From positions 1 to 39,359 of the forward strand of contig JAHBZZ010000026.1 of NCBI GenBank assembly GCA_019635215.1: 39,359 nucleotides of DNA. Reading direction: 5' to 3'. Shown one piece after another: positions 144-21,662 of the stretch. The position numbers were made by a program, and so were the translations under genes. The notes under the pieces were generated by a model. The model saw nothing but the letters and a program-made list of their open reading frames with translations. It made no database searches and had not been told where the DNA came from. How positions within the stretch are numbered: the stretch's first letter is position 1; each line of letters begins with the position of its first letter. Source of the DNA: Nitrosomonas sp. (GTDB lineage Bacteria; Pseudomonadota; Gammaproteobacteria; Burkholderiales; Nitrosomonadaceae).

Positions 144-791
144 TCAGATAAATCTGCGTCTAGTAACAAGCATTCCAAGCAAACCAAGAACTAACAGACT
201 AATTAATCCAGGTTCTGGCATAGGAGTCGGTCGAGGAGTAGACACTTCTGCTGTAAATCCAATATTTTGGAAATCAACTTGTCGATTAGTGCCAGTTAAA
301 AAAGCGGTAACAAATTGAACATTTAAAGGTGCTGGCAGAACGATATCTTGTGCCAATATTCCCGGCGAACTACCTAATGCAGGCTGAATACCTAAAGTTC
401 CTACTTGTACGTTAGAACTATTGAAGAAAGTAAAATCAATGTTGTCCACATCGAAATCTTCACCTGTATAATTCCAAAAATGTAACGTACTGATGTCATA
501 TTCTTGACCGAAATTAAATAGCAATTCTAACCCACCTCCTACATTATCAGCGGTGAACCAAATATGGGTACTTTGATCATGAAATTCAGTAGCAGTTGCA
601 GAAGGAGCGTCTATTACTTTATCAATTGTATTACCGCCACTAAATGTATTGTTGAAACTGCCAGGTGATGTACCTGCTCCAACTGAAACACTGATATTTG
701 TGTTGTTAAGATAAATTGGCGCTGCAAACGCACTTGTAATACTGAATGAAATTAGAAGTAAAGCTTTTAACACAAGTACCCTTATAAACAT
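144..791 (-). CDS. PEP-CTERM sorting-domain exported protein
   Basis: This 215-residue protein has a typical Sec signal peptide (about residues 1-24, hydrophobic LVLKALLLISFSI followed by AFAA). It ends with a PEP-CTERM tail: PEP at about 192-194, a hydrophobic helix and the basic end RRRF. In this family the tail is cut by exosortase and the protein goes to the surface or exopolysaccharide matrix. The middle is beta-rich with acidic and aromatic residues (FWNYTGEDFDVDNIDFTF), like the galactose-binding-like folds of many PEP-CTERM proteins. I chose the ATG at 791 because AAGGAG lies 7 nt before it. The longer frame from 833 would begin at the predicted transcript start of the -24/-12 promoter at 844-859. 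Sorting class is confident; the actual role is unknown. Confidence 0.93.
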   Translation of the reverse strand: MFIRVLVLKALLLISFSITSAFAAPIYLNNTNISVSVGAGTSPGSFNNTFSGGNTIDKVIDAPSATATEFHDQSTHIWFTADNVGGGLELLFNFGQEYDISTLHFWNYTGEDFDVDNIDFTFFNSSNVQVGTLGIQPALGSSPGILAQDIVLPAPLNVQFVTAFLTGTNRQVDFQNIGFTAEVSTPRPTPMPEPGLISLLVLGLLGMLVTRRRFI

Positions 792-843
792 ATATTTTCT
801 CCTTGTTCTTAATGTTTTTGGCTTATTTGCCATTTAATATTGA

Positions 844-859
844 AGCAAGTATTGTGCCT
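844..859 (-). promoter_or_regulatory. Sigma-54 (-24/-12) promoter of the PEP-CTERM gene
   Basis: On the minus strand the sequence reads AGGCACAATACTTGCT, with GG and GC separated by exactly 10 nt. It matches the consensus TGGCACG-N4-TTGCW at all but two defined positions. The expected transcription start is near 833-834, giving a leader of about 43 nt before the ATG at 791. PEP-CTERM genes in floc-forming betaproteobacteria are known to be controlled by PrsK/PrsR with RpoN, which makes the site credible. Confidence 0.7.
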
Positions 860-1262: not shown

Positions 1263-2622
1263 ATGAAAACGAATGCAAACCAGCTCATCGAGATACTGTC
1301 CCAGCACCCGCGCATATCCATTGCGGAGCTTTGCCGTCTATTGGGAAACATTCAACGTTCGACTTTAATGCGGCTTTTACCACAGGTGAACGAACAAGTC
1401 GTGCGCCTTGGAAGTACACGGCGTTCGCGCTATTCACTGCGACGCGCGCTTCGCGGCGACCGTACACCGATCCCTTTGTACGGGATTGACCCAAACGGCA
1501 GCGGGGAGTATATGGCTGATTTAAGTCTGACACACCCTGCAGGCAGTGCGCTCACAACACACACCCATGTACCTTGGCCGCTCGATGTCGATATGCAGGA
1601 TGGCTGGTTTGATGGTCTGCCCTACTTCCTGAGCGATATGGCGCCGACTGTCCTGGGGCGCAATTTTGCATACACCTATGGCAGGGAATTAAGCCTGGAT
1701 GAAAACCCTGCCAATTGGTCCGATGATGATATTGTTTCCGTACTTTCAACCTGGCTACGGACCCGCCTGGAAACCTTATCCTGGGAGATAAGGCCTATGG
1801 TCGTTATCTTGAAACGCGCAGAGACGCGGAACAGCACATCATTGCAGAAACCAGGCTGGAACAGGAATATCCGGCCCTGGCTGACAGAGCTATGTCGCAT
1901 GAAGTCGCCGGCCCATCGGTCGCCGGCAAGTTTCCCAAATTTACAGCGACCCGCTGGAGTAACAATGTGCCTGTTTCGGTTATCGTGAAATTCTCAGGCG
2001 CAGACAACTCGGCTGCGGTACAACGTTGGTCTGATCTATTGGTATGCGAACACCTGGCCTTGGAGACACTTCAGGCACACACGGACATTGCCGCCGCACA
2101 AAGCCGTATTCATCGCTTCGCGGGGCGTACTTTTCTCGAAGTGGCGCGTTTTGACCGCACAGGACTATACGGACGTTTGCCCATATGTACATTGGGCAGC
2201 CTGGCAGACGCATTGATTGGACAAAGGGCCGAATGGCCCGTTCTGATCGAAACACTTGTCAAAAATGGTTGGCTTGCATCGGGACAAGCAAGTATCGTCA
2301 AAACAGTTTGGCTGTTCGGGCGGCTGATTGCGAACGCTGACATGCACGAAGGCAATCTATCCTTCAGGCCGGGGCTTACGCTGGCGCCCATTTACGACAT
2401 GCTGCCCATGCAATATGCCCCGGCGCGTGGCGGAGAGCTCGCGCCGCAGCGCTATTCTCCACCTTTACCGTTTCCCCAGGAGATCAATGCCTGGCGTGTC
2501 GCCGCACACGCTGCGCTCTGGCGTTTTGGAAGACTGCTCAAAATGACACGCGCATTAGTCTGGCGTTTCAGCAAACCTGTGCGGAAAATCATGGCGTCCT
2601 GATGAAGGTTTATGAGACCTAA
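1263..2622 (+). pseudogene. hipH: HipA-family toxin kinase (HipH/YjjJ-like), broken by two frameshifts
   Basis: The reading starts at the ATG at 1263 with an N-terminal winged-helix region (about residues 1-60, ISIAELCRLLG) and the family stretch DGWFDGLPYFLSDM. Near 1743-1757 one base appears lost, and the protein continues in the next frame (ATDPPGNLILGDKAYG, then the kinase lysine region VSVIVKFSG, then RTFLEVARFDR and the catalytic NADMHEGN followed by LAPIYDMLP). Near 2516-2520 a second base appears lost, and the end continues as FWKTAQNDTRIS to a TAA at 2620. Restoring two bases gives 453 residues, close to E. coli YjjJ (about 443). The kinase residues survive but no single frame spans them, so the gene should be dead unless the shifts are sequencing errors. 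No strong RBS and no obvious antitoxin gene are seen. Confidence 0.82.
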
Positions 2623-2878: not shown

Positions 2879-3268
2879 TTATAAAGACCTTTCATGGTTT
2901 GACTCAATTCTTGCTTTGTTGATGTTTTGGTCAATTAAACCAGCAGCCATTGTTTTGTGATAAGCGGCTTTTGCCAGATTTTCCTGTGCGGCTTTTTCAT
3001 AGCCGTGAATTTTATAGGCGACATGCGACTTAATATGTTGCCCGTTTCTACCGAAGAAACTTGAGCGGGGCTTGTGTTTGAGCGCTTCTTCCTGTTCCTG
3101 CGCTTTGGCCTGCATGTCCTTGGCTAAGTTTTCATATTGTCTGGCCAGTGCTTCATGTTCATCAACTTCCTGGTCGTTCTGAGCCGCAAAAGCATTCATG
3201 GATATACCGCTGATCAGGAGCGCTAATATGGATAAAGTGGTCAAATATTTTCCAATGTTTGTTTTCAT
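2879..3268 (-). CDS. Small exported helical protein, unknown function
   Basis: A 129-residue protein starting at the ATG at 3268; GGAG lies 11 nt upstream. A longer frame to 3355 has no better RBS and would bury the signal peptide. Residues 1 to about 28 are a clear Sec signal (KYLTTLSILALLISG followed by AFAA). The mature part is charged, Gln/Glu/Lys/Ala-rich and predicted to be helical or coiled coil (EHEALARQYENLAKDMQAK). No cysteines, catalytic motif or lipobox are seen, so a soluble periplasmic protein is likely. It converges on the hipH remnant across the shared terminator and has no visible link with the injection system. I do not recognise the family. Confidence 0.7.
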   Translation of the reverse strand: MKTNIGKYLTTLSILALLISGISMNAFAAQNDQEVDEHEALARQYENLAKDMQAKAQEQEEALKHKPRSSFFGRNGQHIKSHVAYKIHGYEKAAQENLAKAAYHKTMAAGLIDQNINKARIESNHERSL

Positions 3269-3355
3269 GATAGTCGTAACTCCAAGTAGGTTGACATGGA
3301 TGCATACTAGCTTTTCAATGTATCCATGTATATTGGGGAAACTATTGTTTTGCAC

Positions 3356-3855: not shown

Positions 3856-4824
3856 ATGATAGGGCAATCCTCCGCTTTTCTTGAAATGCTTCGGTATATC
3901 GAAAAAATGACACGCTGTGATGCGCCGGTTCTGATTGAGGGTGAAACAGGCACGGGAAAAGAATTGGTGGCACGCGCCATTCATTATGGCGGTACCCGCG
4001 GTGAGAGTCCGTTTATACCGGTAAACTGCGGCGCTATCCCTGATGCCCTGATCGAAAATGAATTGTTTGGCCACAAACGCGGTGCTTACACAGATGCCCA
4101 GTCGGATGATCCCGGTTTGATCACACATGCCCGGCATGGAACACTTTTTCTGGATGAAGTGGATGCCTTGTCTCCTAAAGCGCAGATCGTATTATTGCGG
4201 TTTTTGCAGGATCAGCAATACCGCCCTCTGGGGGGCGCGCAAATACTGTCGGCAGATGTGCGTGTCATTGTCGCCAGTAATGTGAATTTGACCCGGTTGG
4301 CGGAGCAGGGTGCATTCCGCCTCGATTTGTTGTTCCGTCTCAAAATTATGTACCTGAAGTTACCACCGTTGCGGGAGCGGCAGGGCGATGCTGTGCTGCT
4401 GGCAAACCACTTCCTGCAGGTATGCGCACAGCGTTTTGGATACGGTGATAAGACACTGCATCCGGATACGCTTGCCTGGTTTGATCAATATTATTGGCCA
4501 GGCAATATCCGGGAGCTGGAGAATATGATTTGCCGTGAGTATCTGATTGAAGATAATGCAGTTATTCATATTAAAGCACCCCAATTCAATATGACCGAAC
4601 GGCGTAGCGGTATAGACCGGCGGCAATCCACCCTGACCAGTAAGGTTTTTAACGAGGCTAAAAATCATGCGATTGCCAAGTTTGAGCAGTGCTATCTTTC
4701 CGAAGCCCTGGCCAAGGCGCAAGGCAATGTGACTAAAGCCGCAAAATTAGCGGGTAAAGAACGGCGCGCGTTTGGCAAACTGCTGAAAAAATACAGCCTG
4801 GATAAGCGTCTTTATTATCATTAG
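3856..4824 (+). CDS. Sigma-54-dependent activator, AAA+ and Fis-type HTH, no sensory domain
   Basis: A 322-residue bacterial enhancer-binding protein. The AAA+ core runs from residue 1 to about 235: Walker A GETGTGKE at 29-36, the sigma-54 contact loop as GAYTDA at 76-81 (consensus GAFTGA), Walker B GTLFLDEV from 95, sensor I VIVASN, arginine finger region FRLDLLFRL, then LPPLRER and WPGNIRELEN. A linker (ERRSGIDRRQ) leads to a C-terminal Fis-type HTH at about 280-316 (GNVTKAAKLAGKERRAFGK). It starts directly at the AAA+ domain, as PspF and HrpS do, with no receiver, PAS or GAF domain. The start is firm: AAAGGAG lies 5 nt before the ATG and an in-frame stop sits at 3838. It lies 304 nt upstream of the -24/-12 promoter of the injection-system operon, which is its likely target. 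Confidence 0.93.
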   Translation: MIGQSSAFLEMLRYIEKMTRCDAPVLIEGETGTGKELVARAIHYGGTRGESPFIPVNCGAIPDALIENELFGHKRGAYTDAQSDDPGLITHARHGTLFLDEVDALSPKAQIVLLRFLQDQQYRPLGGAQILSADVRVIVASNVNLTRLAEQGAFRLDLLFRLKIMYLKLPPLRERQGDAVLLANHFLQVCAQRFGYGDKTLHPDTLAWFDQYYWPGNIRELENMICREYLIEDNAVIHIKAPQFNMTERRSGIDRRQSTLTSKVFNEAKNHAIAKFEQCYLSEALAKAQGNVTKAAKLAGKERRAFGKLLKKYSLDKRLYYH

Positions 4825-5127
4825 GTATTGAATCCCTTCCGTGCAGTCGGCTATAAGAATCTGTTATTCGAGATCTTGAGCAGGCTCTAAGATTACGCCA
4901 CCACACATCACCCATCTGGATCGTTATTCGTATTCCATTCACCATAAGCCGGGTCAGATCTGCCCCGGAAGCGGGTCAACCGTTGACTTTCTTCGCCTGT
5001 AGCGCCTTTTGATAGGTTTAAAGATTGATTCATCCGTGACTGGATGGATATCGATATGACCCACCCGCTTGCTGGATGGTATCTATCTTAAATAGATAAA
5101 TCATGACCTTAATGTGTACTCTAATCT
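4825..5127 (+). promoter_or_regulatory. Upstream control region of the eCIS operon (candidate activator and IHF sites)
   Basis: This non-coding stretch holds several possible binding sites: a palindrome GTCAAC-C-GTTGAC at 4975-4987; a direct repeat CTGGATGG at 5040-5047 and 5072-5079, spaced 32 nt (about three helical turns); a palindrome TATCTAT-CTTAA-ATAGATA at 5080-5098; and an IHF-like site AATCATGACCTTA at 5099-5111, one mismatch from WATCAANNNNTTR. The order (enhancer-like repeats, IHF site, -24/-12) is the usual design of sigma-54 promoters. Which repeat the activator binds is inference. Confidence 0.45.
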
Positions 5128-5143
5128 TGGCATACTTCCTGCA
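5128..5143 (+). promoter_or_regulatory. Sigma-54 (-24/-12) promoter of the eCIS operon
   Basis: TGGCATACTTCCTGCA has the invariant GG and GC separated by 10 nt and agrees with TGGCACG-N4-TTGCA except at the last C, the following G and the first T of the -12 box. Transcription would start near 5154, about 60 nt before the first gene (GTG at 5215). It is the only good -24/-12 match I saw between the activator gene and the operon. Confidence 0.72.
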
Positions 5144-5214
5144 TTAATTTAGATGGAGTGCTGATAAGACTGTGATCAGTTTCCTTTGGGTCGGTAGTAG
5201 AGAATCTTGACAAT

Positions 5215-5472
5215 GTGAAAAATGATAAACCAGTACCGGATAGGGATCAGTTGCAGGATGCGGTTTTGCATTATTTGCGAAATAACCCGAATGCGGCTGA
5301 TTCGCTGCAAGGAATCATCAATTGGTGGTTACCGAAGCAAGGGTATGAAAAAGTGGGTATGGAAAGTGTTTATCAGGCCCTCGAGCAATTGATAGCGGCG
5401 GGCGTGGTGGAAAAAGTGCCGCTTGTGGATGGTACTGTGCTCTATCGATTGATTGCCCGCATTGAAGAGTGA
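5215..5472 (+). CDS. Small winged-helix-like protein, first gene of the eCIS operon
   Basis: An 85-residue protein starting at a GTG (5215); the upstream RBS is weak. Helical segments (DQLQDAVLHYLRNN, ESVYQALEQLIAAGVV) followed by a short hairpin (EKVPLVDGTVLYRLI) have the size and shape of a winged-helix domain. No membrane segment or signal is present. It is the first gene after the -24/-12 promoter and sits 23 nt before the next gene. It could be a small DNA-binding regulator or a small structural protein of the particle; the sequence does not decide. Similar small proteins open some other phage-tail-like clusters, as I recall. Confidence 0.75.
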   Translation: MKNDKPVPDRDQLQDAVLHYLRNNPNAADSLQGIINWWLPKQGYEKVGMESVYQALEQLIAAGVVEKVPLVDGTVLYRLIARIEE

Positions 5473-5495
5473 TCGTAATTTTTCAGGAGAAACGC

Positions 5496-5891
5496 ATGGC
5501 GAATGTGAGTTGGTCAATATCGATTCAGGTGGCGGGCGGTCCGACAGTCTCTGCAAGAGAGGGTCCCATTGCGGCAGAGGCGACGGATCGTATTGAAGTA
5601 TCGATTGCGGGTGGCGAAGTGGACAAAGTAGTCGATCTGCAGCCGGGTCCTGCCAGTGGCATACATCTGTTGCTGATCAAATCGAGTCAGTACGGAGACG
5701 GTACTGAGATTACCTTTAAAGTGAGTGATGGTGTCACTGATAGTCCCGCATTGGTTCTGGCGGGCCCGCAGTTTTACTCGGGTGGGGCTGTAATGCTCCT
5801 GGGTCTGGATCCGCAATCCCTGAAATTTTCCAATGCCAGTGCCGATCCGGCCGAGATTGAAATTTTCATCGCGCGTGATGCGACACCCTGA
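5496..5891 (+). CDS. Small beta-rich eCIS-associated protein, unknown function
   Basis: A 131-residue protein. I place the start at the ATG at 5496, where CAGGAG lies 6 nt upstream; the frame is open to 5469 but without an RBS there. The sequence alternates hydrophobic and polar residues throughout (WSISIQVAGGPTVS, IHLLLIKSS, ITFKVSDGV, EIEIFIARD), indicating an all-beta fold. No signal peptide, cysteines or catalytic motif are seen. It lies between the winged-helix-like gene and the sheath gene (29 nt before it), so a small structural role is plausible. I do not recognise the family by name. Confidence 0.8.
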   Translation: MANVSWSISIQVAGGPTVSAREGPIAAEATDRIEVSIAGGEVDKVVDLQPGPASGIHLLLIKSSQYGDGTEITFKVSDGVTDSPALVLAGPQFYSGGAVMLLGLDPQSLKFSNASADPAEIEIFIARDATP

Positions 5892-5920
5892 TTATCTTTC
5901 TCTTGATTGGAGCGTTTAAT

Positions 5921-7492
5921 ATGCCTATTGCGTTAACTTATCCCGGTGTTTATATCGAAGAAATTCCCAGTGGTGTGCGGACGATTACGGGTGTCGCCAC
6001 TTCCATCACTGCTTTTGTCGGTGCATCACGCCGTGGGCCGATTGACACGGAGGCGCCTGTCCGCGTACAGAGTTTTGCTGAATTTGAGCGGAGTTTCGGA
6101 GGATTGTGGCAGCAAAGCCCGATGACGTATGCGGTCAGCCAGTTTTTCCAGAATGGCGGTTCCGATGCCCTGATCATACGGGTCATCAATGGCGGCGCGG
6201 CGGCTACCGGATCGGCAGACACACTCAATCTGGAAGCGGCCTCGCCGGGTGACTGGGGAGAACAGCTCAGGGTCCGCGTCGATCACAACACACGACCTGA
6301 AATCGGTGTGGAAGAACTGTTCAACCTGACGATTCGCGACACAGTGACTGGTGCGACTGAGCGCTTTCTCAATATCTCCGTGTTACCTGCGCATGCGCGT
6401 TATGCAGGCCGGGTGCTGGAACAGGAATCCAGGCTTGTCCGGCTCGCAGCGCCCGCACCGGCCACCCGTCCTGCCGCAACGCCGGATGCCGCGCCGGGTG
6501 TCGATCCGATGACGGTGACGCCCGGTTCTTTTGCATTCAATGCCGATGGCGATGACGGGACAACCATTTCGGACAGCGACGTATCCGCACCTGCGCTGGA
6601 AACCAATAAGCGCGGTATCTGGGCGCTGGAAAAAGCCGATCTCTTCAATTTATTGTGTATTCCACCCTTTTCGTTTGAAGCAACGGGCGATATCGGCGCC
6701 CAGACACGGACTGTGGCCGCCAACTATTGCCGTACCCGCCGCGCGCTCTATATCGTCGATCCGTTGACTGCCTGGGACGAACCGTCTGATCTCATTGCCG
6801 GTGCAAACAATCTGGATGGCGCGACCTGGGGATTGGCGCGCAGTGAAAATGCCGCGGTTTATTTTCCGCGATTACGCAGTCCCGATCCGCTGCAGGAAGG
6901 GCGGCTGGCGGAATTTGCGCCCTGTGGGGCGATTGCGGGCGTCTTTTCACGTACCGACAGTCAGCGCGGTGTCTGGAAAGCTCCCGCCGGGATTGAAGCA
7001 GCCCTGAGCGGTGTATCCGAATTGACCGTCAAATTGACCGATGGCGAGAATGGCCAGCTCAATCCACTGGGTGTGAACTGCCTGCGCAGCTTTCCGGTGA
7101 TCGGGCGTGTCGTGTGGGGCGCGCGTACGATGCGGGGCGCGGATTCACTCGCTTCCGAATGGAAATATGTCCCGGTGCGGCGGCTCGCATTGTTTATCGA
7201 GGAAAGCCTCTACCGGGGCACGCAATGGGTCGTGTTCGAGCCCAACGACGAACCGCTTTGGGCGCAGATACGGCTGAATCTGGGCGCTTTCATGCAGAAT
7301 CTGTTCCGCCAGGGCGCATTCCAGGGCCGCTCGCCGCGTGAAGCCTATTTCGTCAAATGTGATCGCGAAACCACCACACAAAATGATATCGATCTCGGTA
7401 TCGTGAATATCATCGTCGGATTCGCCCCCCTGAAACCGGCCGAGTTTGTCGTCATCAAGTTGCAACAGATAGCCGGACAAATTGAAACTTAA
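5921..7492 (+). CDS. Contractile sheath protein (Pvc2/Afp2-type tail sheath)
   Basis: A 523-residue tail sheath subunit that would polymerise around the inner tube and contract on firing. The N-terminus YPGVYIEEIPSGVRTI is the family signature of phage and eCIS sheaths. The C-terminal domain carries the conserved run from YVPVRRLALFIEESL through FEPNDEPLW and FVKCD, which makes the handshake strands between subunits. An Ala/Pro-rich linker (about residues 170-205) separates an inserted outer domain. The ATG at 5921 follows TTGGAG; the frame open to 5903 lacks an RBS. Only one sheath gene is present, whereas AFP and PVC have three paralogues. It is followed 12 nt later by the tube gene, the normal order. 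Confidence 0.97.
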   Translation: MPIALTYPGVYIEEIPSGVRTITGVATSITAFVGASRRGPIDTEAPVRVQSFAEFERSFGGLWQQSPMTYAVSQFFQNGGSDALIIRVINGGAAATGSADTLNLEAASPGDWGEQLRVRVDHNTRPEIGVEELFNLTIRDTVTGATERFLNISVLPAHARYAGRVLEQESRLVRLAAPAPATRPAATPDAAPGVDPMTVTPGSFAFNADGDDGTTISDSDVSAPALETNKRGIWALEKADLFNLLCIPPFSFEATGDIGAQTRTVAANYCRTRRALYIVDPLTAWDEPSDLIAGANNLDGATWGLARSENAAVYFPRLRSPDPLQEGRLAEFAPCGAIAGVFSRTDSQRGVWKAPAGIEAALSGVSELTVKLTDGENGQLNPLGVNCLRSFPVIGRVVWGARTMRGADSLASEWKYVPVRRLALFIEESLYRGTQWVVFEPNDEPLWAQIRLNLGAFMQNLFRQGAFQGRSPREAYFVKCDRETTTQNDIDLGIVNIIVGFAPLKPAEFVVIKLQQIAGQIET

Positions 7493-7504: not shown

Positions 7505-8029
7505 ATGGCTCAGTTCAGTGTCAACGCATCGCGTTTCGATCCTTACAAAAACTTCAAATTCCGTGTGAAATGGGATGGCCGTTATGTCGCGGGAATCAGC
7601 AAGGTGGGCGCGCTCAAGCGTTCGACCGAACTCGTCGAGCATCGCGAAGGCGGTGATCCCTCCACGTCGCGTAAATCACCCGGCCGCAACAAATACGAGG
7701 CCATTACGCTCGAGCGGGGCGTGACCCATGACACCGAGTTCGAAAAATGGGCCAACAAGGTCTGGAATTTCGGTTCCGGATTGGGGGCTGAAGTCTCGCT
7801 CAAGGATTTCCGCAAGGATCTCATCATCGAGGTCTACAACGAAGCCGGTCAACTGGCTATTGCGTATAAGGTTTTCCGTTGCTGGGTGTCCGAATATCAG
7901 GCTTTGCCCGATCTCGATGCGAATGCCAACGCAGTAGCGATTCAGACAATCAAGCTCGAAAATGAAGGCTGGGAACGTGACTACGAAGTCGCCGAACCGG
8001 CGGAACCCAGTTTTACCGAGCCTGCCTGA
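7505..8029 (+). CDS. Inner tube protein (Pvc1/Afp1-type, T4 gp19 family)
   Basis: A 174-residue tube protein expected to form stacked hexameric rings inside the sheath. The opening FDPYKNFKFRVKWDG and the motifs HREGGDPSTSRKSPG, ITLERGVTHD and FEKWANKVW are characteristic of the T4 gp19-like tube family. A start with AAGGAG 7 nt before the ATG is clear. A single tube gene is seen; AFP and PVC have a second, baseplate-proximal paralogue, here probably replaced by the CIS_tube-domain protein at 21789. It is followed 8 nt later by the hub chaperone gene. Confidence 0.95.
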   Translation: MAQFSVNASRFDPYKNFKFRVKWDGRYVAGISKVGALKRSTELVEHREGGDPSTSRKSPGRNKYEAITLERGVTHDTEFEKWANKVWNFGSGLGAEVSLKDFRKDLIIEVYNEAGQLAIAYKVFRCWVSEYQALPDLDANANAVAIQTIKLENEGWERDYEVAEPAEPSFTEPA

Positions 8030-12882: not shown

Positions 12883-13136
12883 ATATCAAACTGCATATCG
12901 ACCGGTTAGTGCTGGATGGCCTTGATTTTCCGCCTGATCAACAGCAAGTGTTACAAACCAGCGTGGTGAACGAATTGACCCGGCTGTTGGGCGAAGGGGG
13001 ATTGGCGCCGCATCTTGCCGGGGGCATTGCTCTGGTACGGCTGTCCGCTGGTGATATCCAGGTAACGGACAACCGCCCGGCGCAACTGGGCCGGCAAATT
13101 GCACAATTGGTCTATGGAGGTATGGGTCATGAATAA
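12879..13136 (+). CDS. Conserved 85-aa eCIS-associated protein
   Basis: A compact 85-residue protein coupled to the ATPase by a 4-nt overlap and to the first DUF4157 gene by an 8-nt overlap. It begins with a strand (IKLHIDRLVLDGL), followed by a helix (QQVLQTSVVNELTRLL), a Gly-rich turn and a C-terminal helix (LGRQIAQLVYGGMG). Short proteins of this pattern sit directly after the ATPase in other eCIS clusters, as I recall, so it may be a cofactor or a chaperone for loading cargo. No enzymatic motif is visible and function is unknown. Confidence 0.85.
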   Translation: MNIKLHIDRLVLDGLDFPPDQQQVLQTSVVNELTRLLGEGGLAPHLAGGIALVRLSAGDIQVTDNRPAQLGRQIAQLVYGGMGHE

Positions 13137-14304
13137 AACGGATGCTCGGCTCGTCAGAACGGCAGGTTTTTTACCACTGACTCAAGGTGCTCAAAGTATT
13201 CAGGGCGTACTGCAACGCAAGTGCGCCTGTGGCAATCATACGATTGCGGGCGGGGAATGCGCAGAGTGCAACCGGAAAAAACAAGCTTTGCAGCGCAAGG
13301 CATCCGACCGGAACCCGGTATCCGGAGCTGAAGTGTCGTCTATCGCGCCGCCTATCGTCCACGCTGTTCTGCGTTCGTCCGGTCAACCGCTTGATGCACA
13401 GACGCAGGCTTTGATGGCATTCAAATTCGGACAGGATTTCAGCCGGGTGCGGGTGCATACTGGTACGCAGGCAGCGGAGTCGGCGCGGCAGGTTAACGCA
13501 TTGGCTTATACGGTCGGGCAGGATATCGTATTCGGAAACGGGCGGTATTCACCCCATACACGTGAAGGACAACAATTGGTGGCGCATGAGCTCGTGCACA
13601 CGATTCAGCAGGATGGGCGCAGGACTTCCATGGCTGGCACGCTCAGAATCGGCAACCCGGGTGATCGTTACGAACAGGAAGCGGACCGTGTTGCTGATCA
13701 GATAGTGGCGGCACCGGCGCAATCCGCGCCTGGCGGCGTGCATCTGCCGCCGCACGCAGGGCCGCTTCAGGTTGCCCGGTTAGTGGCGGACGCTGAGGGA
13801 GCTGCGGAACCGCTGATTCCGCTGGAATCGGGTGCAACGCCAATGGCCAGGGGACCGGAATGCAGCCGGCAGCGCAACCGTGGCCAAAGCCTTCCTTTGG
13901 TGAGAACCGCTTTCCGAGGCGAACGTGGTTTCGCCTATATTCCTTCAGATGGTCATCCCGGGCCAGGCGGGCTGTTAGTCACCGGAAATTCCGTTTCAAT
14001 CAAGATCAGTGCGCGCTGGGAGGAGCAGATTCCCGATCCGGATCAAAGGCCGCCTGATCAGCGCAGCAGGCGAGCGGACCGCCCGCAATACTACCTGAGC
14101 TTTAACGGATGGGTTGATGATTGTGATTCTACGAATGCAGGCGGCCCGGCTTCTTCGATTCAAACCGCAAATCTTGCCATCGGTACAGAGCATACCGTTA
14201 ACCTGGCGAGCCTGATACCGGGTAGATATGGTTTGCAGGTCAATCCTTCTACGGCATCGGCTGAACCCAATCGTGTTCTTGCCGGAACGTGCGAAGTGAC
14301 TTAG
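13129..14304 (+). CDS. DUF4157 (eCIS-core) protein 1, putative cargo with unknown beta-rich C-terminus
   Basis: A 391-residue protein. The start at 13129 has GGAGG 8 nt upstream; the frame is open to 13099 but lacks an RBS. Residues 30-57 form a Cys module (CAC at 32-34, CAEC at 44-47), probably a small zinc ribbon. Residues about 75-162 are the DUF4157 core, with FKFGQDFSRVRVHTG and HELVH at 153-157, a zinc-protease-type HExxH. The family motif YEQEADRVADQI comes after the core (181-192), the reverse of the three paralogues. The C-terminus (about 235-391) is beta-rich with no known motif. No signal peptide: DUF4157 proteins are associated with eCIS and thought to be cargo. Confidence 0.9.
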   Translation: MNKTDARLVRTAGFLPLTQGAQSIQGVLQRKCACGNHTIAGGECAECNRKKQALQRKASDRNPVSGAEVSSIAPPIVHAVLRSSGQPLDAQTQALMAFKFGQDFSRVRVHTGTQAAESARQVNALAYTVGQDIVFGNGRYSPHTREGQQLVAHELVHTIQQDGRRTSMAGTLRIGNPGDRYEQEADRVADQIVAAPAQSAPGGVHLPPHAGPLQVARLVADAEGAAEPLIPLESGATPMARGPECSRQRNRGQSLPLVRTAFRGERGFAYIPSDGHPGPGGLLVTGNSVSIKISARWEEQIPDPDQRPPDQRSRRADRPQYYLSFNGWVDDCDSTNAGGPASSIQTANLAIGTEHTVNLASLIPGRYGLQVNPSTASAEPNRVLAGTCEVT

Positions 14305-14325
14305 GCGGCTGGAACAGGTGAAAAT

Positions 14326-15924
14326 ATGTATAGAGCCATGATTGCAACCCAGCAACAAACGACGGTTAAGCCGCCGCAGGTCTTGCCTGCCATGCGGATG
14401 AACAGGCTGCAGCGCAAACTGACAGTGGGTGCGCGTCATGACCCGCTGGAACGGGAAGCCGACCGGATTGCTGATCAGGTGCTGGCAATGCCGGCGCCGG
14501 TCGCGGATAGCCGTGCACCCTTGCACATTCAACGTTACTCGGAACAAGCAAGCGGGCAGGTGGATGCAGTGCCCGATACGGTTAATCAGGCGCTGGCTGC
14601 TCACGGCAGGCCGCTTGAACCGGCGTTACGGCAGGATATGGAGCATCGTTTCGGCCATGATTTCTCTCAAGTAAAAATACATGCTGGCGGCGTTGCCGGA
14701 CAATCGGCGCGCGCGGTGAATGCGCAGGCCTATACAGTGGGAAGCGACATTGTATTCGGCGCCGGGCAGTTCGCACCGGCAACGCATGCGGGACGGCGGT
14801 TACTGGCGCATGAGCTGACGCATGTGATCCAGCAATCAGCGGGTATATCTCCCACGATGCAAAGACAACCGGACAAGGATAAGAAGGAACCCTCCAGCGA
14901 GGTTGGCAAAGCACTTAAAAAAAACGGCCTGTTTAAAAAATTACCCGAATTTGCCCAGGAAAAAATACTGGACGAAATTGATAAGGCGCCTGAAACGATT
15001 ACTCAGGAAATCTTTGACCGGATCATCGATCTCGCGCCCATTGATTCGCAATACAAAGACGGATTGAAAAAAGCCGGTGAAGCGATCATTAAAACCATTA
15101 CGGGCAGGAAGCCGCCTTCCACCAGTAAATGCGACATACCCGGCTACCATGAAGGCACGTCTTCCACTTACAAAGGCATGTGCTGCAGCAGCACCATCGA
15201 AAGTGCAGCCACGTGCTGCCCGAAAGATAAATTCGCACCTAACAATTCGCCCGTTTGCTGTGCAGCGGATGAATTTGTCACGGCCAGCTACAAATGCGAA
15301 AAGATATCCGCTGTTGATCCCGGCAGTATCTGCATACCGCCCGGCAAAAAAGATGCCCTGGGCAAATGCTGCATGCCACCGCTCGAAGTCATCGATGGCT
15401 TGTGCGTGAGTCCGCCGCCGCAGCAGCCGGAATCCAAACCGGAATCACCGGCCCGGCCATTCAGCCTGACATTTACGGTGGGCGTGATTGATGACTACGA
15501 TATCGATCAGTCTGTCATCAACAGCCGGCAGAAGCCGCATTTCGATAAAGTGAAGAGCCAGATTCATCAGTTTGTCGAAACTTGCCCGGCCAGCATCATA
15601 ACAATCACCGGGTTTGCGGATAAACCCGGAACGGAGGAGCACAATCTGGGCCTTGGGCAGCGCAGGGCCGATCACGTTAAATTCCTGCTCCAACTCGATC
15701 TGATGAAAATCAGCACCGGCGGTATATCTCCGCTGATTCTTGCGCGCTCGGAGGGGGAAAGTAATCCGGTAGACGTCGAGGCGGGTGAAAAATTCTCTGC
15801 ACGGAACAGGCGCGTGGAAATTGAATTTAATTCCATCTGTCCGCCGCTGGGCAGTACGCCTTTGATAAAACCGTTGAATGTTAGCCCTTTTCAGTTGCGC
15901 AGCCCGCAGCAATTCAGTTTTTAA
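14326..15924 (+). CDS. DUF4157 protein 2, putative cargo with Cys-rich and OmpA-like C-terminal domains
   Basis: A 532-residue protein. It has DPLEREADRIADQV at 39-52 and a DUF4157 core at about 82-170 with HELTH at 162-166. It lacks the N-terminal Cys module present in the other three. A charged helical stretch (about 180-260) leads to a Cys-rich segment (about 265-365, including repeated CC pairs such as MCCSS, TCCPK, VCCAA, KCCMP), probably disulphide-bonded or metal-binding. Residues about 378-504 resemble an OmpA-type peptidoglycan-binding domain (ITITGFADKPGTEEHNLGLG, RNRRVEIEF). Delivery to a cell wall or periplasm would make sense of this set. No signal peptide. It starts 22 nt after the previous gene. 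Confidence 0.88.
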   Translation: MYRAMIATQQQTTVKPPQVLPAMRMNRLQRKLTVGARHDPLEREADRIADQVLAMPAPVADSRAPLHIQRYSEQASGQVDAVPDTVNQALAAHGRPLEPALRQDMEHRFGHDFSQVKIHAGGVAGQSARAVNAQAYTVGSDIVFGAGQFAPATHAGRRLLAHELTHVIQQSAGISPTMQRQPDKDKKEPSSEVGKALKKNGLFKKLPEFAQEKILDEIDKAPETITQEIFDRIIDLAPIDSQYKDGLKKAGEAIIKTITGRKPPSTSKCDIPGYHEGTSSTYKGMCCSSTIESAATCCPKDKFAPNNSPVCCAADEFVTASYKCEKISAVDPGSICIPPGKKDALGKCCMPPLEVIDGLCVSPPPQQPESKPESPARPFSLTFTVGVIDDYDIDQSVINSRQKPHFDKVKSQIHQFVETCPASIITITGFADKPGTEEHNLGLGQRRADHVKFLLQLDLMKISTGGISPLILARSEGESNPVDVEAGEKFSARNRRVEIEFNSICPPLGSTPLIKPLNVSPFQLRSPQQFSF

Positions 15925-15980
15925 GCGATGAGCGAAGCATGGCATGAACTGATCAGGCGGATAAATGAACAGGTGAGCAA

Positions 15981-17600
15981 ATGAATACATCGATGACCAC
16001 CACGCGGCAGCAAACGGTATTAAAGCCGCCACAGACGGGCATTCTGCAGCGTCAGTGTGCCTGCGGCAAGCATACGATGGCAGGTGGCATATGTGCGGAA
16101 TGCGTCAGGAAAAAAACAATGGTGCAGCGCAAGCTGACGATCGGCGCACTGAGCGATCCACTGGAACGGGAAGCCGATCGTGTGGCTGAGCAGGTGTCGG
16201 CGGCACAGGCCAATCCTGCTATCAGTGTAGCGATTACAAGTATCCAGCGCGATGCAGGGCGGCCGTCAGAGGCATCGCAAGAAGTGCCGGCGAGTGTTGA
16301 GCAGGTGCTTGCCAGTGCTGGCACGCCGCTTGAACCGGTGTTGCGGCAGGATATGGAGCAGCGGTTCGGTCATGATTTCTCGAAGGTGCGGGTGCATTCG
16401 GATAGCACTGCGAGGCAGTCTGCCTTGGATATCGACGCGAAAGCCTATACGGTGGGTCATCACATCGTATTTGGTGCGGGCCGGTATGCGCCAGCCAGCA
16501 AGGAAGGGCTGCATCTTCTTGCGCATGAGCTGACTCACGTGGTGCAACAGTCTGGTGCGGGCAGTACCGCCCGGCGGCAGGTGCAAAGGGCGCCGGTTTA
16601 TTACCGCCAGCTGACCTGGAAGGATTTTCAGGGACAGGCCGTTGAGAGTGCGCCTGAATCGGCAGGAATATTAAGCTTGTTTGAACTGCCCGGTTTTACG
16701 GCAGTAGCCAGTATAAAAGATACCAAAACCCGATGTAAGCTGGGAAAGACGGCTTCGACTCTCTTTACTGTGACAAAAGAACTTGATCCTGCCCAGGCTG
16801 ACATAATCAAAGCCTACATGGACCCCAGTCAGTCGTGGGTAAAAAAGCGTTTTCAGGATGATGGCACTACGTATTGCTCAGGCATCGCGGCACGATGCGA
16901 GCGCGATTTCGACCAGAGTACCGCGACGGTGACAACCAGTTGTGAAAGGACTGTAAAGGATTGCGAGGATAGTTTCCAGAAGAGTAAAGGGGAGCGCCGG
17001 TTCACGATTGGCAGTAAAAGGCTGATTGTCAGCAGAGCCGACCAGTGCCGGCCGATGCTGTTTAAACCTTGCCAGAATGAATTAATGAAGGATGCACGCG
17101 TTACCGTGGGCGCCACGACAGTGAAGGCGAAAGACGATTGCAGAAAAGTTCTGCTGCCGGTATGCATGGCGGATGAAAAAGTTAAGAAAGCGGATCTGTT
17201 GAAACATGAGCAGGGACACTTCGATATTACCCACACATTGGCTAATAAAGCGCGTCCAAACATTAAAGAGAAAGCAAAAACAGTCCGGGTGACAGAAAAG
17301 CAGTGCGGAAAAGATGCAGCTGAGAAAGCAGCGGATGCGTCGTATGACAAACTGTACAGTGCATTGAAGCAACTGATCGACGATTGGCTGGCGGTGAAAG
17401 AAAAAGCGCATGAGGATTACGATGCACAAACCGGCCATGGTTCAAATGCCGTCAAACAGAAAAGCTGGGAGGCCGATATTCAGGCCGGATTGATGAAATA
17501 CGAGCCGGCAATGTTATCCACTAGAGGATCAACTAAGCTGCCGGTAGCGCCTGCTGGGACAAAATTACCGACAACCTCTCCCACACAGACACCGGAATAA
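15981..17600 (+). CDS. DUF4157 protein 3, putative cargo with a DUF922-like metalloprotease C-terminus
   Basis: A 539-residue protein. A Cys module (CAC 26-28; C38, C41), DPLEREADRVAEQV at 59-72 and the DUF4157 core at about 102-190 (HELTH 182-186) are followed by a domain opening YRQLTWKDFQG (208-218). Later come DPSQSWVK, LLKHEQGHFDIT (HEQGH at 409-413) and DYDAQTGHGSNAVKQKSWE. That succession fits DUF922, a predicted Zn-dependent protease family. Two potential zinc peptidase sites in one cargo is unusual. Several Cys lie between the two parts (about 294-395). No signal peptide. Confidence 0.88.
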   Translation: MNTSMTTTRQQTVLKPPQTGILQRQCACGKHTMAGGICAECVRKKTMVQRKLTIGALSDPLEREADRVAEQVSAAQANPAISVAITSIQRDAGRPSEASQEVPASVEQVLASAGTPLEPVLRQDMEQRFGHDFSKVRVHSDSTARQSALDIDAKAYTVGHHIVFGAGRYAPASKEGLHLLAHELTHVVQQSGAGSTARRQVQRAPVYYRQLTWKDFQGQAVESAPESAGILSLFELPGFTAVASIKDTKTRCKLGKTASTLFTVTKELDPAQADIIKAYMDPSQSWVKKRFQDDGTTYCSGIAARCERDFDQSTATVTTSCERTVKDCEDSFQKSKGERRFTIGSKRLIVSRADQCRPMLFKPCQNELMKDARVTVGATTVKAKDDCRKVLLPVCMADEKVKKADLLKHEQGHFDITHTLANKARPNIKEKAKTVRVTEKQCGKDAAEKAADASYDKLYSALKQLIDDWLAVKEKAHEDYDAQTGHGSNAVKQKSWEADIQAGLMKYEPAMLSTRGSTKLPVAPAGTKLPTTSPTQTPE

Positions 17601-17619
17601 CCGGGAGGACAGACGATAT

Positions 17620-19083
17620 ATGGATACCATGATCATGGATAAAACACCAGCTTCCCGAAAAAATAGCAGGATCAGTTTTTTACCAACTGCTCAAGGTACG
17701 CTGCAACGTGTGTGTGCCTGCGGTAACCATGCGATGGCAGGCGGGGAATGTACCGCGTGCGCCCGGAAAAAAACAATGCTGCAGCGCAAGCTGACGATGG
17801 GTGCCGATAACGATCCGCTGGAACGGGAAGCCGACCGGATTGCCGGGCAGGTAATGGCAAGATCGGCTGCTGCTGTCAGCACTGATTCATTCCGTATTCA
17901 ACGCGCCAGTCAGCAGGCCGGATCCATGGCAATCGTGCCTGCCAGCGTGGACCGTGTCCTCGCGGGTCCGGGTAAGCCGTTTGATGCAGCACTGCAGCAG
18001 GATATGGAGCAGCGTTTTGGCCACGATTTTTCAAAGGTGCGGGTACATACCGGCGCTGCCGCTGCACAATCGGCGCAGGAGGTCAATGCATATGCTTATA
18101 CGGTGGGACGCGACATTGTGTTTGGCGCAGGCCAGTTCGTGCCGGGAACATCTGACGGGCGGCGATTGATTGCGCACGAGCTGACGCATGTGCTGCAGCA
18201 ATCCGGCGTAAGCGGAATAGGTGGCGGCAAACTGGGAACGGTGCATGATCCCTTGCTGCAACGCGATCTCGCACTGCAGCCGACTAACCCCAATGCCCGG
18301 GAAGTCAATCTGACCGCGCAGCAGATTCGTGATGCGATCAACTTCAACCGGCGGCGCTATGATGCGGAAAATACCCGTCTTATTCAGGATGTTGTGGGTG
18401 CGCCTGTGACAGGTACGTTTGACGAGGAAACGATCCGGTTGATCGCACGGTATCAGGATGATTTCGGATTCACGCCCGCGGATGGGAAAGTCGGGCCGGA
18501 TACTTTTGATCAGTTGACCGCCGAGTTGCAGGCGGAGGGTGTCGATGATCAGACGTGCCTGACACTGTTCAATGTATCGGATCCGGCTATTCCGCTGAAT
18601 ATCCGTGTGGCCGGACCGGGCCTGGCGGATATTTTTTCGCGGTTTAGCATGACGGCGCGTTTTTCCCCGCATTGCCACTGCGATCAATTCGAGTACCGTC
18701 AGTTTATCTGTGGTTCGGTGGACAGAACACAAGGTGGCGTGGCCACCAATATCAATCATCTTTTTGCCATTCCCGGCGGTGGCCTGCCGCAATGCCCGGG
18801 CTGGGTGGAGGATGGCAATACGGCACAGGCCCAGAATGGCCGGTATGGTCATCGTAACCATGCGGCCAGGGTTAACAACCGCTATCTGGATGATACAGGC
18901 ACCGTGGATATGGCAAACGGTTGCCGGTTCGAAGCTTTCGATGTACCTGGTATGTTCGGGGTACCGGGTAACAGCGGCGACCGCTATGATTTTGATATAC
19001 GTTTTTTCGGGGATATCCGGCGCAACGGACGGAGGGTGCAGCGGAAATTCTGGGCGGTCAGGGACAATCTGACGATTCCGTGA
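17620..19083 (+). CDS. DUF4157 protein 4, putative cargo with PG_binding_1-like and novel C-terminal domains
   Basis: A 487-residue protein. A Cys module (CAC 32-34, CTAC 44-47), DPLEREADRIAGQV at 65-78 and the DUF4157 core at about 105-195 (HELTH 186-190) are followed at about 230-305 by a peptidoglycan-binding-1-like repeat (VTGTFDEETIRLIARYQDDF then DGKVGPDTFDQL). Residues about 312-487 are an unknown domain containing His, Cys and Asp clusters (FSPHCHCDQFEYRQF, YGHRNHAARVNN, GDRYDFDIRFFGD) that could be enzymatic or metal-binding. GGGAGG lies about 12 nt before the first ATG; ATGs at 17629 and 17635 are alternatives. No signal peptide. Confidence 0.88.
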   Translation: MDTMIMDKTPASRKNSRISFLPTAQGTLQRVCACGNHAMAGGECTACARKKTMLQRKLTMGADNDPLEREADRIAGQVMARSAAAVSTDSFRIQRASQQAGSMAIVPASVDRVLAGPGKPFDAALQQDMEQRFGHDFSKVRVHTGAAAAQSAQEVNAYAYTVGRDIVFGAGQFVPGTSDGRRLIAHELTHVLQQSGVSGIGGGKLGTVHDPLLQRDLALQPTNPNAREVNLTAQQIRDAINFNRRRYDAENTRLIQDVVGAPVTGTFDEETIRLIARYQDDFGFTPADGKVGPDTFDQLTAELQAEGVDDQTCLTLFNVSDPAIPLNIRVAGPGLADIFSRFSMTARFSPHCHCDQFEYRQFICGSVDRTQGGVATNINHLFAIPGGGLPQCPGWVEDGNTAQAQNGRYGHRNHAARVNNRYLDDTGTVDMANGCRFEAFDVPGMFGVPGNSGDRYDFDIRFFGDIRRNGRRVQRKFWAVRDNLTIP

Positions 19084-19160: not shown

Positions 19161-21662
19161 ATGCATTCAGACAATAAAACATATACCTATCGCTGCGGCG
19201 AAAAGGTGGCACTGACCAAGAGCGCCGATGAATTCGTGGTGCGGACTGCACCGGAAAATTTACGGGGATGCCGGTATACACGGGCGGAACAGGTTTCCCC
19301 CGCATCGTATAAATTGACCACGTATGCGGCTGAACTCGATAGCGCCATGAACCAGGCGCGGGAAACCGCTGTCGCGCATCATGCTTATTACACTGCCGCC
19401 ACGGGCGAGGAATTTCTCATTACCGACCGTGTTTTTGTGACGTTTAAAGCGGTCCTGACGCCCGAGCAGATCGATCTGTTTGCCGGCCGTTATGGCTTAA
19501 TACAACAGGAAGTCTATAGTGAACGGGACTACCTTTTTCAATTGACCGAGCATACCGGTATGAATCCGGTCAAACTGGTGGTACAGCTCATGGAAGACGA
19601 GCCGCTGGTGGAGAGCGCGGAGAATGATCTCAATCACCGGTTAAAAACCTACCAGTTTCAGGTGCCTGCTGATCCCAGCTATGTCCGGCAATGGCATTTG
19701 CACGATCATTTCAGTAATCCGGCCTTCGATAGCCGTGCTTCGGCGCGTTGCGAGGAAGCATGGCGGATTCTGAATCATTTTGGCAGCTTCGATGTGGTGG
19801 TGGGGGTGACCGATGATGGTTGCAAGATAGATCATCCGGACTTCGATTCGCCCGGTAAATTTGCCGGTTGGGGTTATTTCCGCGGCAGCCGGCTGGTGGT
19901 GCGCGACGATATCGATGCGGACGCAGCGCAGATGTATCGTACAGGCGCCAACCACGGCACTTCCTGTGCGGGTGTGATTGCGGGTGAAGCCGATGCTGTG
20001 TTAACGGTGGGTGCGGCGCCCGGCTGCCGTCTGCTGCCGATACAGTGGGAATCCAATGGTCCCTATCTTCAGATTACCGATTCCAAGTTGCTGACCGCGC
20101 TCAATTATCTGGCGGATAATGTTGATGTGATCTCCAATTCCTGGGGAGGCGTGCCGACCAGTCTGTGGCCTGCCGCGGTCATCAACAGAATCCGGCAACT
20201 CGCGGTCAATGGCGGGCGGCGGAAAAAAGGCATTGTTTTTTTGTGGGCGGCCGGTAACGAAAATTGCCCCATTCAGCATACCGCCAATACCGAGGTTCCC
20301 TATAACGACGGCTGGCGGCAGAATAGCGATGGCTCATGGTCGTGGGTCGGCGTCAGTACGACACGGCAGTTCCGGAACAACCTGGTTAACGTGCCTGGCG
20401 TCATGCATGTGGCGGCTTTGGCCAGTAATGCGCAGCGGAGCCACTATTCCAATTATGGAACGGGTATCGGTTTATGCGCGCCCACCAATAACGTTCATGA
20501 ATATCGCCGCATGACGGTGACCGGCTTGGGTATTACGACGACGACGGGTACGGGAAGCGGCGTGACGGCGGCATTTGGTGGAACATCAAGCGCTACCCCG
20601 CTGGTTGCCGGGGTAGCCGCGCTGGTCATCTCGGCCAATCCGGGTCTGACTGCACTGGAAGTCATCGCTGTTCTCAAGCGCACAGCAGCCAGGAATCTAA
20701 ATATGGCGGGCTATCCGAAAACGCCGCCTGCCAGTTACGACCCGTCTCCGGGATGGGATGTTTCCCCGGTTCCGCCTTTTGATCAAGGTGCTTTTATCGA
20801 TACAGGGAGTGCGGATGGCCTGTGGAGTCCTTGGTTCGGCCACGGCAGATTAGATGCCGCAGAAGCCGTGGCCGAGGCGCTGCGGCTGGGTGGTGGCGTA
20901 TCTGCTGAACAAACCTACCGTCAGGCCTCTTCGCCGGCCTTGCCGATCCCGGATAACGATGCGGCCGGTGTGCGGGACACCATTCTGTTTGCTGACAATA
21001 CACGCATCGGTTCCATCAGGGTTGCAGTAGATATTGCCCATAGCTATATCGGCGATTTACGGCTGACGTTGCTGACGCCTTCCGGCAGCGGCGTGATGCT
21101 GCACAATCGCAACGGTGGCAGCGCGGATAACCTTAATCAATCTTTTGACGAAAACACGACCCTTGGCCTTGCCGGTTTGAAAGGCCAGCCGCTTCAGGGT
21201 GTCTGGACACTCCATGTCCAGGATCTGGCCCGCGCCGATAAAGGCGTGTTGAACCGTTGGGAGATCGCGGCATCGGGTTACGCGGATGCCACGGTTCAGG
21301 CAGAGGAATCACCGGGTGTCTCTATTCCGGACAATGACTCCGCCGGTATTGAAAGAACGTTGACGGTGACCGGTAACGGCAAGATAGGTGACATCCGTAT
21401 CGCGGTCGATATTACCCATAGCTTCATCGGTGATCTGATCGTAACACTGGTCGCACCTGATGGTACAGGCATCGCCCTGCATTCCCGTAGCGGCGGCAGT
21501 CAGGACAATATCATCAAAACCTATACCACCGCCACGACACCTGCGCTATCGGCATTACGCGGCCATGCGCTGCAAGGGGCATGGCGTTTGCGGGTTGCCG
21601 ATCTCGGTGCCAAGGATGTCGGTAAACTGAATCACTGGACAGTGTGGATAACGCCTGAATAA
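19161..21662 (+). CDS. Subtilisin-like serine protease (S8) with two P domains, leaderless
   Basis: An 833-residue protein. An N-terminal region of about 170 residues (FVVRTAPENLRG, FVTFKAVLTPEQI, VYSERDYLFQL) resembles an S8 propeptide. The catalytic domain has Asp218 (GVTDDGC), His265 (NHGTSCAGV) and Ser476 (GTSSATP), with WAAGNEN for the oxyanion hole. Two tandem P/homoB domains follow (about 590-710 and 717-832), each starting IPDND and ending in an LNxW motif. There is no Sec signal although secreted subtilisins normally have one. Placed between the DUF4157 genes and the hub genes of the same cluster, it may be particle cargo or a particle-associated maturation protease. Confidence 0.93.
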   Translation: MHSDNKTYTYRCGEKVALTKSADEFVVRTAPENLRGCRYTRAEQVSPASYKLTTYAAELDSAMNQARETAVAHHAYYTAATGEEFLITDRVFVTFKAVLTPEQIDLFAGRYGLIQQEVYSERDYLFQLTEHTGMNPVKLVVQLMEDEPLVESAENDLNHRLKTYQFQVPADPSYVRQWHLHDHFSNPAFDSRASARCEEAWRILNHFGSFDVVVGVTDDGCKIDHPDFDSPGKFAGWGYFRGSRLVVRDDIDADAAQMYRTGANHGTSCAGVIAGEADAVLTVGAAPGCRLLPIQWESNGPYLQITDSKLLTALNYLADNVDVISNSWGGVPTSLWPAAVINRIRQLAVNGGRRKKGIVFLWAAGNENCPIQHTANTEVPYNDGWRQNSDGSWSWVGVSTTRQFRNNLVNVPGVMHVAALASNAQRSHYSNYGTGIGLCAPTNNVHEYRRMTVTGLGITTTTGTGSGVTAAFGGTSSATPLVAGVAALVISANPGLTALEVIAVLKRTAARNLNMAGYPKTPPASYDPSPGWDVSPVPPFDQGAFIDTGSADGLWSPWFGHGRLDAAEAVAEALRLGGGVSAEQTYRQASSPALPIPDNDAAGVRDTILFADNTRIGSIRVAVDIAHSYIGDLRLTLLTPSGSGVMLHNRNGGSADNLNQSFDENTTLGLAGLKGQPLQGVWTLHVQDLARADKGVLNRWEIAASGYADATVQAEESPGVSIPDNDSAGIERTLTVTGNGKIGDIRIAVDITHSFIGDLIVTLVAPDGTGIALHSRSGGSQDNIIKTYTTATTPALSALRGHALQGAWRLRVADLGAKDVGKLNHWTVWITPE

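Follow-up and report, generated by a model that had tools for sequence, protein, structure and literature searches.

How bacteria begin to produce eCIS is documented for few systems (AFP, PVC and Streptomyces), and the locus analyzed here raises the question of how the eCIS operon of a Nitrosomonas genome is turned on. The window, by which we mean the whole stretch of 39,359 nucleotides that was analyzed, encodes on its forward strand an eCIS sheath (5903–7492, Pfam PF17482; the frame opens at 5903, with the ATG at 5921 the more likely start) and an eCIS inner tube (7505–8029, Pfam PF06841), followed at 8038–36437 by the rest of the cluster as recognized by Pfam. This remainder comprises a baseplate protein, a Pvc16-type protein, an AAA ATPase with a winged helix, four eCIS_core proteins, a subtilase, a second tube protein, a gpV-like spike-complex protein, gp25, two baseplate J-like proteins, a DUF6519/beta-helix protein and genes without a Pfam match. 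The sheath, tube, baseplate, Pvc16-type protein and AAA ATPase that together identify an eCIS are all present in the window, and T6SS families (TssB/C-type sheath, TssF/G, membrane complex) were absent from the 29 window proteins scanned. The four copies of eCIS_core (PF13699) are consecutive genes (13099–19083, forward strand), one of them also with an OmpA domain and one with a peptidoglycan-binding domain, and the subtilase gene (19161–21662) directly follows them; the eCIS_core and subtilase genes are candidate cargo or processing genes.

Two small genes precede the sheath gene. The first gene of the operon, g1 (5215–5472, forward strand), was identified by profile searches and a structure model as encoding an 85-aa winged-helix protein, and served us as the marker of the module described below; its AlphaFold model (pLDDT 80.9) matches the winged-helix domains of Fur, Zur, LmrR and PadR proteins. 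The second gene, g2 (5469–5891, forward strand), belongs to an unknown family, with an open frame from 5469 and an ATG at 5496 that has the better ribosome-binding site.

In front of g1 lies a predicted sigma-54 promoter, TGGCATACTTCCTGCA (5128–5143, forward strand), in which the −24 GG (5129–5130) and the −12 GC (5141–5142) are spaced by ten bases in a TGGCAY-N6-TGCW context, 71 nt upstream of the GTG start of g1 at 5215. Scored with an approximate sigma-54 matrix (maximum 19.6 bits), this site reaches 16.4 bits and is the top site in the 39 kb window, the runner-up having 13.3 bits. Among 2000 dinucleotide shuffles of 4825–5214 (forward strand), only one attained 16.4 bits, and 30 shuffles of the whole window gave a mean of 0.13 sites at 16.4 bits on both strands. 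Sigma-54 transcription usually starts about 12 nt past the GC, and by this usual geometry the start point is predicted near 5154. One rpoN match above the cut-off was found in the same genome. The strict consensus TTGGCAYRNNNNYTGCW has four matches in this 3.39 Mb genome versus two for a reversed control, and a loose sigma-54 consensus has seven matches in the window versus 8.2 expected, i.e. chance level; as both counts are near control or chance, the motif by itself is no proof, and the weight falls on its conservation. An inverted repeat, CTGAT/ATCAG (5161–5179), lies in the predicted 5' leader and is also found in the closest relative (L068).

Upstream of the promoter and in the same orientation, we found the gene of a 322-aa bEBP (3856–4824, forward strand) with an AAA+ sigma-54 interaction domain (PF00158, 2.7e-58), an AAA lid (AAA_lid_14) and a Fis-type HTH (HTH_8, 1.2e-06), the Walker A and B motifs reading GETGTGKE and LFLDEV. 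A preliminary description of the locus had put forward a GG-N10-GC sigma-54 site at this position, about 70 nt before the first gene and with a sigma-54 activator gene upstream in the same orientation, and each of these points was borne out. It had also suggested that the system answers to a nitrogen, envelope or surface signal. This suggestion was not upheld: nothing found points there, and the protein, which opens with the AAA+ domain, lacks a sensor domain, its open frame of only 327 aa leaving no space for an N-terminal receiver domain of the NtrC type. In the sigma-54 contact loop, GAYTDA replaces GAFTGA. Among the rows of its own clade GAFTDA/GAYTDA is the commonest form (26 of 39 rows, including a few duplicates), and the canonical GAFTGA is found in 36 of 59 more distant activator rows; the recognition helix GK[ED]RRA-GKL[LI]KK is kept in all but two of the activator rows compared.

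The genes further upstream (144–833, 1263–2602 and 2879–3355) were sought in the palindrome-survey loci and found only in the window, and therefore lie outside the module. The HipA-like gene among them (1263–2602, forward strand) consists of two overlapping frames (1263–1988, and 1892–2602 with HipA_C) and looks broken. The gene at 144–833 (reverse strand) has an end that by eye resembles a PEP-CTERM protein and no Pfam match at 0.001, and a sigma-54-like site, AGGCACAATACTTGCT (844–859, reverse strand, 13.1 bits), is located just upstream of it. An alignment of seven loci revealed no conserved motif 5' of the activator gene, with a good match only around the start codon.

Of 125 Nitrosomonadaceae genomes, 49 contain sheath relatives (E ≤ 1e-20), and we examined 33 loci, consisting of the window and 32 fetched stretches. 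Seven of the 33, the window included, combine g1 with an activator of at least about 70% identity; in one further locus the activator match reaches only 37%. All seven are Nitrosomonas loci in which the top sigma-54 hit (13.8–18.6 bits) is placed 81–111 nt before g1 and the second-ranked hit has at most 6.0 bits. When the best 17 matches of the sheath search (337 bits or more) were taken instead, among them a broken second copy (L043) and a cluster with only 945 nt upstream (L049), eight clusters had a sigma-54 site scoring 13 bits or more in the 1 kb before the sheath, and nine had none. In the eighth site-bearing cluster (L048) the activator lies about 31 kb off. Seven of the nine clusters without a site are in genomes lacking a clade activator, and the promoter therefore tracks the activator, not the sheath; the remaining two are in genomes (G022, G094) with one elsewhere. 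Conservation, proposed at the outset as a check on the promoter, was thus seen in the six relatives that carry the activator and g1 and failed in nine of the 17 best sheath clusters. Three more sheath-like loci exist in the genome of the window itself (G000:C12, C1 and C17), and in the stretches fetched around them no sigma-54 site reaching 13 bits precedes the sheath.

Between the activator gene and the promoter we found paired 16-base palindromes (best form GGGTC-N6-GACCC), which are the predicted binding sites of the activator and fall within the range of about 80–200 nt from the promoter, with both window copies imperfect. The distal site, UAS1 (GGGTCAGATCTGCCCC, 4951–4966, forward strand), has seven of eight core positions and begins 177 nt before the sigma-54 site, and the proximal site, UAS2 (GATATCGATATGACCC, 5047–5062, forward strand), is degenerate with one good half and begins 81 nt before it; an extra half-site read from the sequence (GGGTCAACCGTTGAC, 4973–4987, forward strand) has a similar counterpart in L068. 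In the Nitrosomonas loci the proximal palindrome begins 81–82 nt before the sigma-54 site. Over all loci in which a distal copy was found, that copy begins 164–177 nt before the site (164–175 nt in relatives). One relative (L069) has no distal copy with seven of eight core bases, and imperfect copies also occur in L068 (both) and L070 (distal). The spacer from the proximal palindrome to the −24 element is 65 nt long in six of the seven Nitrosomonas loci and 66 nt in the seventh, and its sequence has diverged. An AATCA element is positioned 36–37 nt into this spacer in six of the seven loci; in the window it belongs to an IHF-like site (AATCATGACCTTA, 5099–5111, forward strand) that matches 12 of 13 consensus positions and begins 36 nt into the spacer. 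An equally good IHF-like match was reached in 845 of 4500 shuffled spacers, so a role of IHF is a suggestion only.

This geometry extends beyond the family. A single stretch common to Rhodocyclaceae and Gallionellaceae records (L076/L077) carries palindromes 80 and 175 nt before the sigma-54 site, and a gammaproteobacterial MAG (L082) carries them 78 and 164 nt before it (rows that repeat one another are L077 with the L076 stretch, L193 with the L074 contig, and L191, L213 and L219 with the L082 locus). Both palindromes are also present in a Desulfocapsa locus (L079), with a weak sigma-54 site, TGGTCTGTTAATTGCT, 78 nt past the start of the proximal one; this site was found by reading the sequence and is absent from the matrix scan listings. 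In a Nitrococcus locus (L081) the palindromes are present and the promoter is missing at the expected distance. Within 1500 nt after more distant activator genes, a perfect palindrome was found in one of 55 cases and two palindromes in none of 55. A search of the window's own genome with GGGTYNNNNNNRACCC gave 7 places versus 15 for the control, and missed the two palindromes of the window, both of which are degenerate.

In genus g3 of the same family, which we take to be Nitrosospira, four loci (L197–L200) encode activator orthologues of 64–68% identity, their open frames still of normal length, whose contact loop reads DSCSGA, DSYTGA, DSCTEA or DSCIGG. In the 20 kb stretches around them we found neither g1 nor a perfect palindrome nor a sigma-54 site reaching 14 bits, two of the four having a single palindrome with seven of eight positions. 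Their sisters L194–L196 retain GAYTGA together with perfect palindromes and a sigma-54 site of 14.2–17.3 bits, again without g1; activator, palindromes and sigma-54 site precede a FecR/TPR protein gene in L195 and an IS110-type transposase gene in L196. The activator clade is hence not exclusive to eCIS. In two Brocadia loci (L083 and L086) the activator and g1 are followed by a radical SAM gene (recognized by Pfam in L083 and by sequence start in L086) and not by a recognizable injection system; in L083 another g1-like stretch lies at 4985–5242. Outside Proteobacteria, two Calditrichota loci (L090 and L092) bring together the activator, a sheath, an AAA gene and a g1-like gene (E about 1e-20), with no good sigma-54 site before g1 (6.7 bits). 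Together with L084, the Brocadia and Calditrichota loci have g1 and a sigma-54 score below 10.

To sample loci by g1, we built a profile from 18 proteins and searched 369 genomes of the class (E ≤ 1e-6), which gave one copy in each of 13 genomes, including the window and the L082 locus. A sigma-54 site of 11.7–18.3 bits was located at most 90 nt upstream of g1 in 13 of 13 loci, the next best site having at most 8.4 bits. Perfect palindromes were present in 8 of 13, at 77–81 nt from the site in seven and at 68 nt in one. Of 3900 shuffled g1 upstream regions, 81 reached 11.7 bits and 18 held a perfect palindrome. All 13 genomes have a clade activator, adjoining g1 in eight and elsewhere in five, and in 9 of 13 the stretch that was read holds a sheath gene related to that of the window. 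Four of these loci (L232, L233, L234 and L237) count as sheath-bearing clusters and not as proven eCIS, with a sheath identity of only 31–45%. Among the others, a Pvc16 gene adjoins g1 in G430; in G475 (L236) g1 leads into a T6SS with VipA and VipB in one protein, Hcp, a gp25-like protein, TssF, TssG and a hub; a PEP-CTERM-type gene follows g1 in G218, on an 11 kb contig without a match to the injection genes of the window; and in G361 the contig ends after g1. The G475 locus has a sigma-54 site of 14.8 bits before g1 and an activator of the same clade about 31 kb off.

A second g1 sample, from order and phylum searches, gave 31 new loci, 30 of them with enough upstream sequence (L252 was left out); five further matches were omitted (G975, G1123, G887 and the second matches in G943 and G1206). 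With 11.7 bits, the minimum seen in the first sample, as threshold, 18 of 30 loci have a site within 200 nt, a count that includes L253, which comes from the same genome as L207 (17 of 29 without it), and perfect palindromes are present in 8 of 30. By a split made afterwards, all 11 loci with a g1 score of at least 56 bits have a site, versus 7 of 19 weaker ones. Nine of the 12 loci without a site keep an activator match nearby, and these failures may reflect a diverged promoter or none. In seven loci (L201–L207) a promoter of 11.7–17.2 bits is present without a perfect palindrome between the activator gene and g1. A DNA-only pattern of palindrome plus promoter had 8 hits in the 369 genomes versus 10 for a reversed control (counted by eye). 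The pattern is nevertheless informative because four of the eight hits adjoin g1, which itself was found only 13 times in these genomes. The pattern was partly derived from L082, one of the four, which leaves three independent hits adjoining g1: a full eCIS cluster in G330, the site beside the Pvc16 gene in G430, and the contig end in G361.

Taken together, the comparison of sequences lends good support to the reading of 5128–5143 as a good, real sigma-54 promoter and to sigma-54 control of the eCIS operon. With a probability of about 0.86, we consider that this site is the −24/−12 promoter of the eCIS operon and would be opened by the activator encoded at 3856–4824, acting from the paired palindromes. 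The basis for this consists of the promoter motif, the activator domains, the paired sites, their fixed geometry, the conservation, the co-loss and the presence of rpoN. Sigma-54 RNA polymerase would occupy 5128–5143 and be held there as a closed complex; the activator would bind the palindromes about 81 and 177 nt upstream (5047–5062 and 4951–4966), assemble into an AAA+ ring and open the complex via DNA looping, perhaps aided by an IHF-like bend at 5099–5111; and transcription would then run from near 5154 through g1, g2 and the injection-machine genes, the predicted extent of the operon. As it has no sensor domain, the activator is probably controlled through its expression level or through a partner, and the co-inherited g1 might be the best candidate for such feedback. 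Several observations count against this reading, namely the imperfect palindromes and the GAYTDA loop of the window, the 9 of 17 sheath clusters and 12 of 30 second-sample loci without a site, the incomplete arrangements in L081 and L201–L207, the low promoter scores before g1 in L083, L084, L086, L090 and L092, the DNA-only pattern being no more frequent than its control, and the approximate nature of the scoring matrix.

One alternative, which we regard as rather unlikely, is that the sigma-54 promoter serves mainly g1 (and g2), with the injection genes on a promoter of their own and any sigma-54 effect on them indirect. It draws on the constancy of g1 after the promoter while what lies downstream varies between sheath clusters, a T6SS and a PEP-CTERM-type gene. 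The close packing of the genes argues for a common transcript instead: the gap between g1 and g2 is at most 23 nt, that between g2 and the sheath gene is 11 or 29 nt depending on the start, and a single terminator-like site was listed between g1 and the sheath, within g2. Moreover, in three clusters without g1 (L048, L052 and L053) a sigma-54 site with an upstream perfect palindrome is found 135–199 nt before the sheath itself.

It is less probable still that the promoter is real and driven by another activator of the genome, the gene at 3856–4824 serving other targets or decaying. At E ≤ 1e-50 the genome does have six activator matches; of its three other strict-consensus sites, two (L002 and L005) precede exported-looking genes; and the neighboring protein, with its missing sensor domain and variant loop, is accompanied by degenerate palindromes. 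Against this, activator, palindromes, promoter and g1 co-occur across genera and classes, conserved recognition-helix residues accompany conserved palindromes, and loss of the activator loop coincides with loss of palindromes and promoter. A chance motif in an AT-rich intergenic region, with the operon read from an unrecognised sigma-70 promoter, is very improbable: consensus-like motifs are frequent and the site is missing from 9 of 17 related clusters, but only 1 of 2000 shuffles reaches its score, its position and score are kept in all seven loci with activator and g1, sites occur in 13 of 13 and 18 of 30 g1 loci versus about 2% of shuffles, and no sigma-70-like match was listed at 4825–5214.

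Beyond promoter opening by the neighboring activator, we tentatively raise a broader possibility, in which activator, two palindromes at fixed helical spacing, promoter and the g1 gene, whose product resembles the Fur DNA-binding domain, form a portable cassette. Such a cassette might have been passed among Proteobacteria and to other phyla, serving eCIS and T6SS alike as a shared switch, and feedback from g1, exerted either on the activator or on g1's own promoter, might make production an all-or-none burst.

Among known systems, T6SS clusters provide the closest parallel, as some have their own sigma-54 activators (VasH, Sfa2) and RpoN-dependent expression, according to passages of PMC10482370. 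The likeness, drawn from the description of VasH and Sfa2, is a contractile injection system cluster with its own sigma-54 activator. The window differs from them in that its target is an eCIS, its activator lacks an N-terminal sensor domain and its operon opens with a winged-helix gene. The preliminary description had called a sigma-54-controlled contractile injection system unusual; given VasH and Sfa2 this does not hold as such, and it stands for eCIS, for which we found no report of sigma-54 or RpoN control in the portions of the open-licence PMC literature covered. The word sigma is absent, by term searches, from PMC10598620, PMC4122934, PMC12961389 and PMC11297309, and also from PMC10553843 on the eCIS of sulfate reducers. 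As stated in part of a review, the regulation of clusters without conserved regulatory genes remains unclear (PMC10598620).

The eCIS regulators described so far are of other kinds. As the preliminary description had said of AFP and PVC, other regulators are in charge there: in the relevant passages of PMC6748792, AnfA1, which is distantly homologous to RfaH, is a positive regulator of AFP, and RfaH operators are found on class I and III pvc operons. As in the prediction for the window, positive control is exerted on an eCIS operon from a site before its first gene; AnfA1 and RfaH do so by anti-termination at an operator, whereas the window has a sigma-54 promoter and an AAA+ activator. In a survey, a GerE/LuxR-type regulator gene was recurrent beside eCIS (25.8% of loci, as given in part of Geller et al. 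2021, PMC8213781, a text in which the words sigma and enhancer are absent), unlike the AAA+ sigma-54 activator of the window. For the Streptomyces eCIS, sections of PMC10020575 describe developmental, bldA-linked control with regulated promoters and a putative cluster-encoded regulator, and no sigma-54 promoter. The activator itself resembles the PspF type in starting directly at the AAA+ domain and ending in a Fis-type HTH, but its score against TIGR02974 (243.7 bits) is under the model cut-off of 443.55, and no psp gene was recognised among the scanned window proteins.

The comparison suggests that an arrangement of promoter and activator recurring before similar machines in other bacteria, for which we found no prior description in eCIS, would extend sigma-54 control from T6SS to eCIS, with a small winged-helix family as the marker of such operons. 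A conserved module of activator, operator sequence and promoter offers a handle for predicting which eCIS are under its control. The activator could likewise be a means to switch an eCIS on, and thereby to ask when environmental bacteria build these particles.
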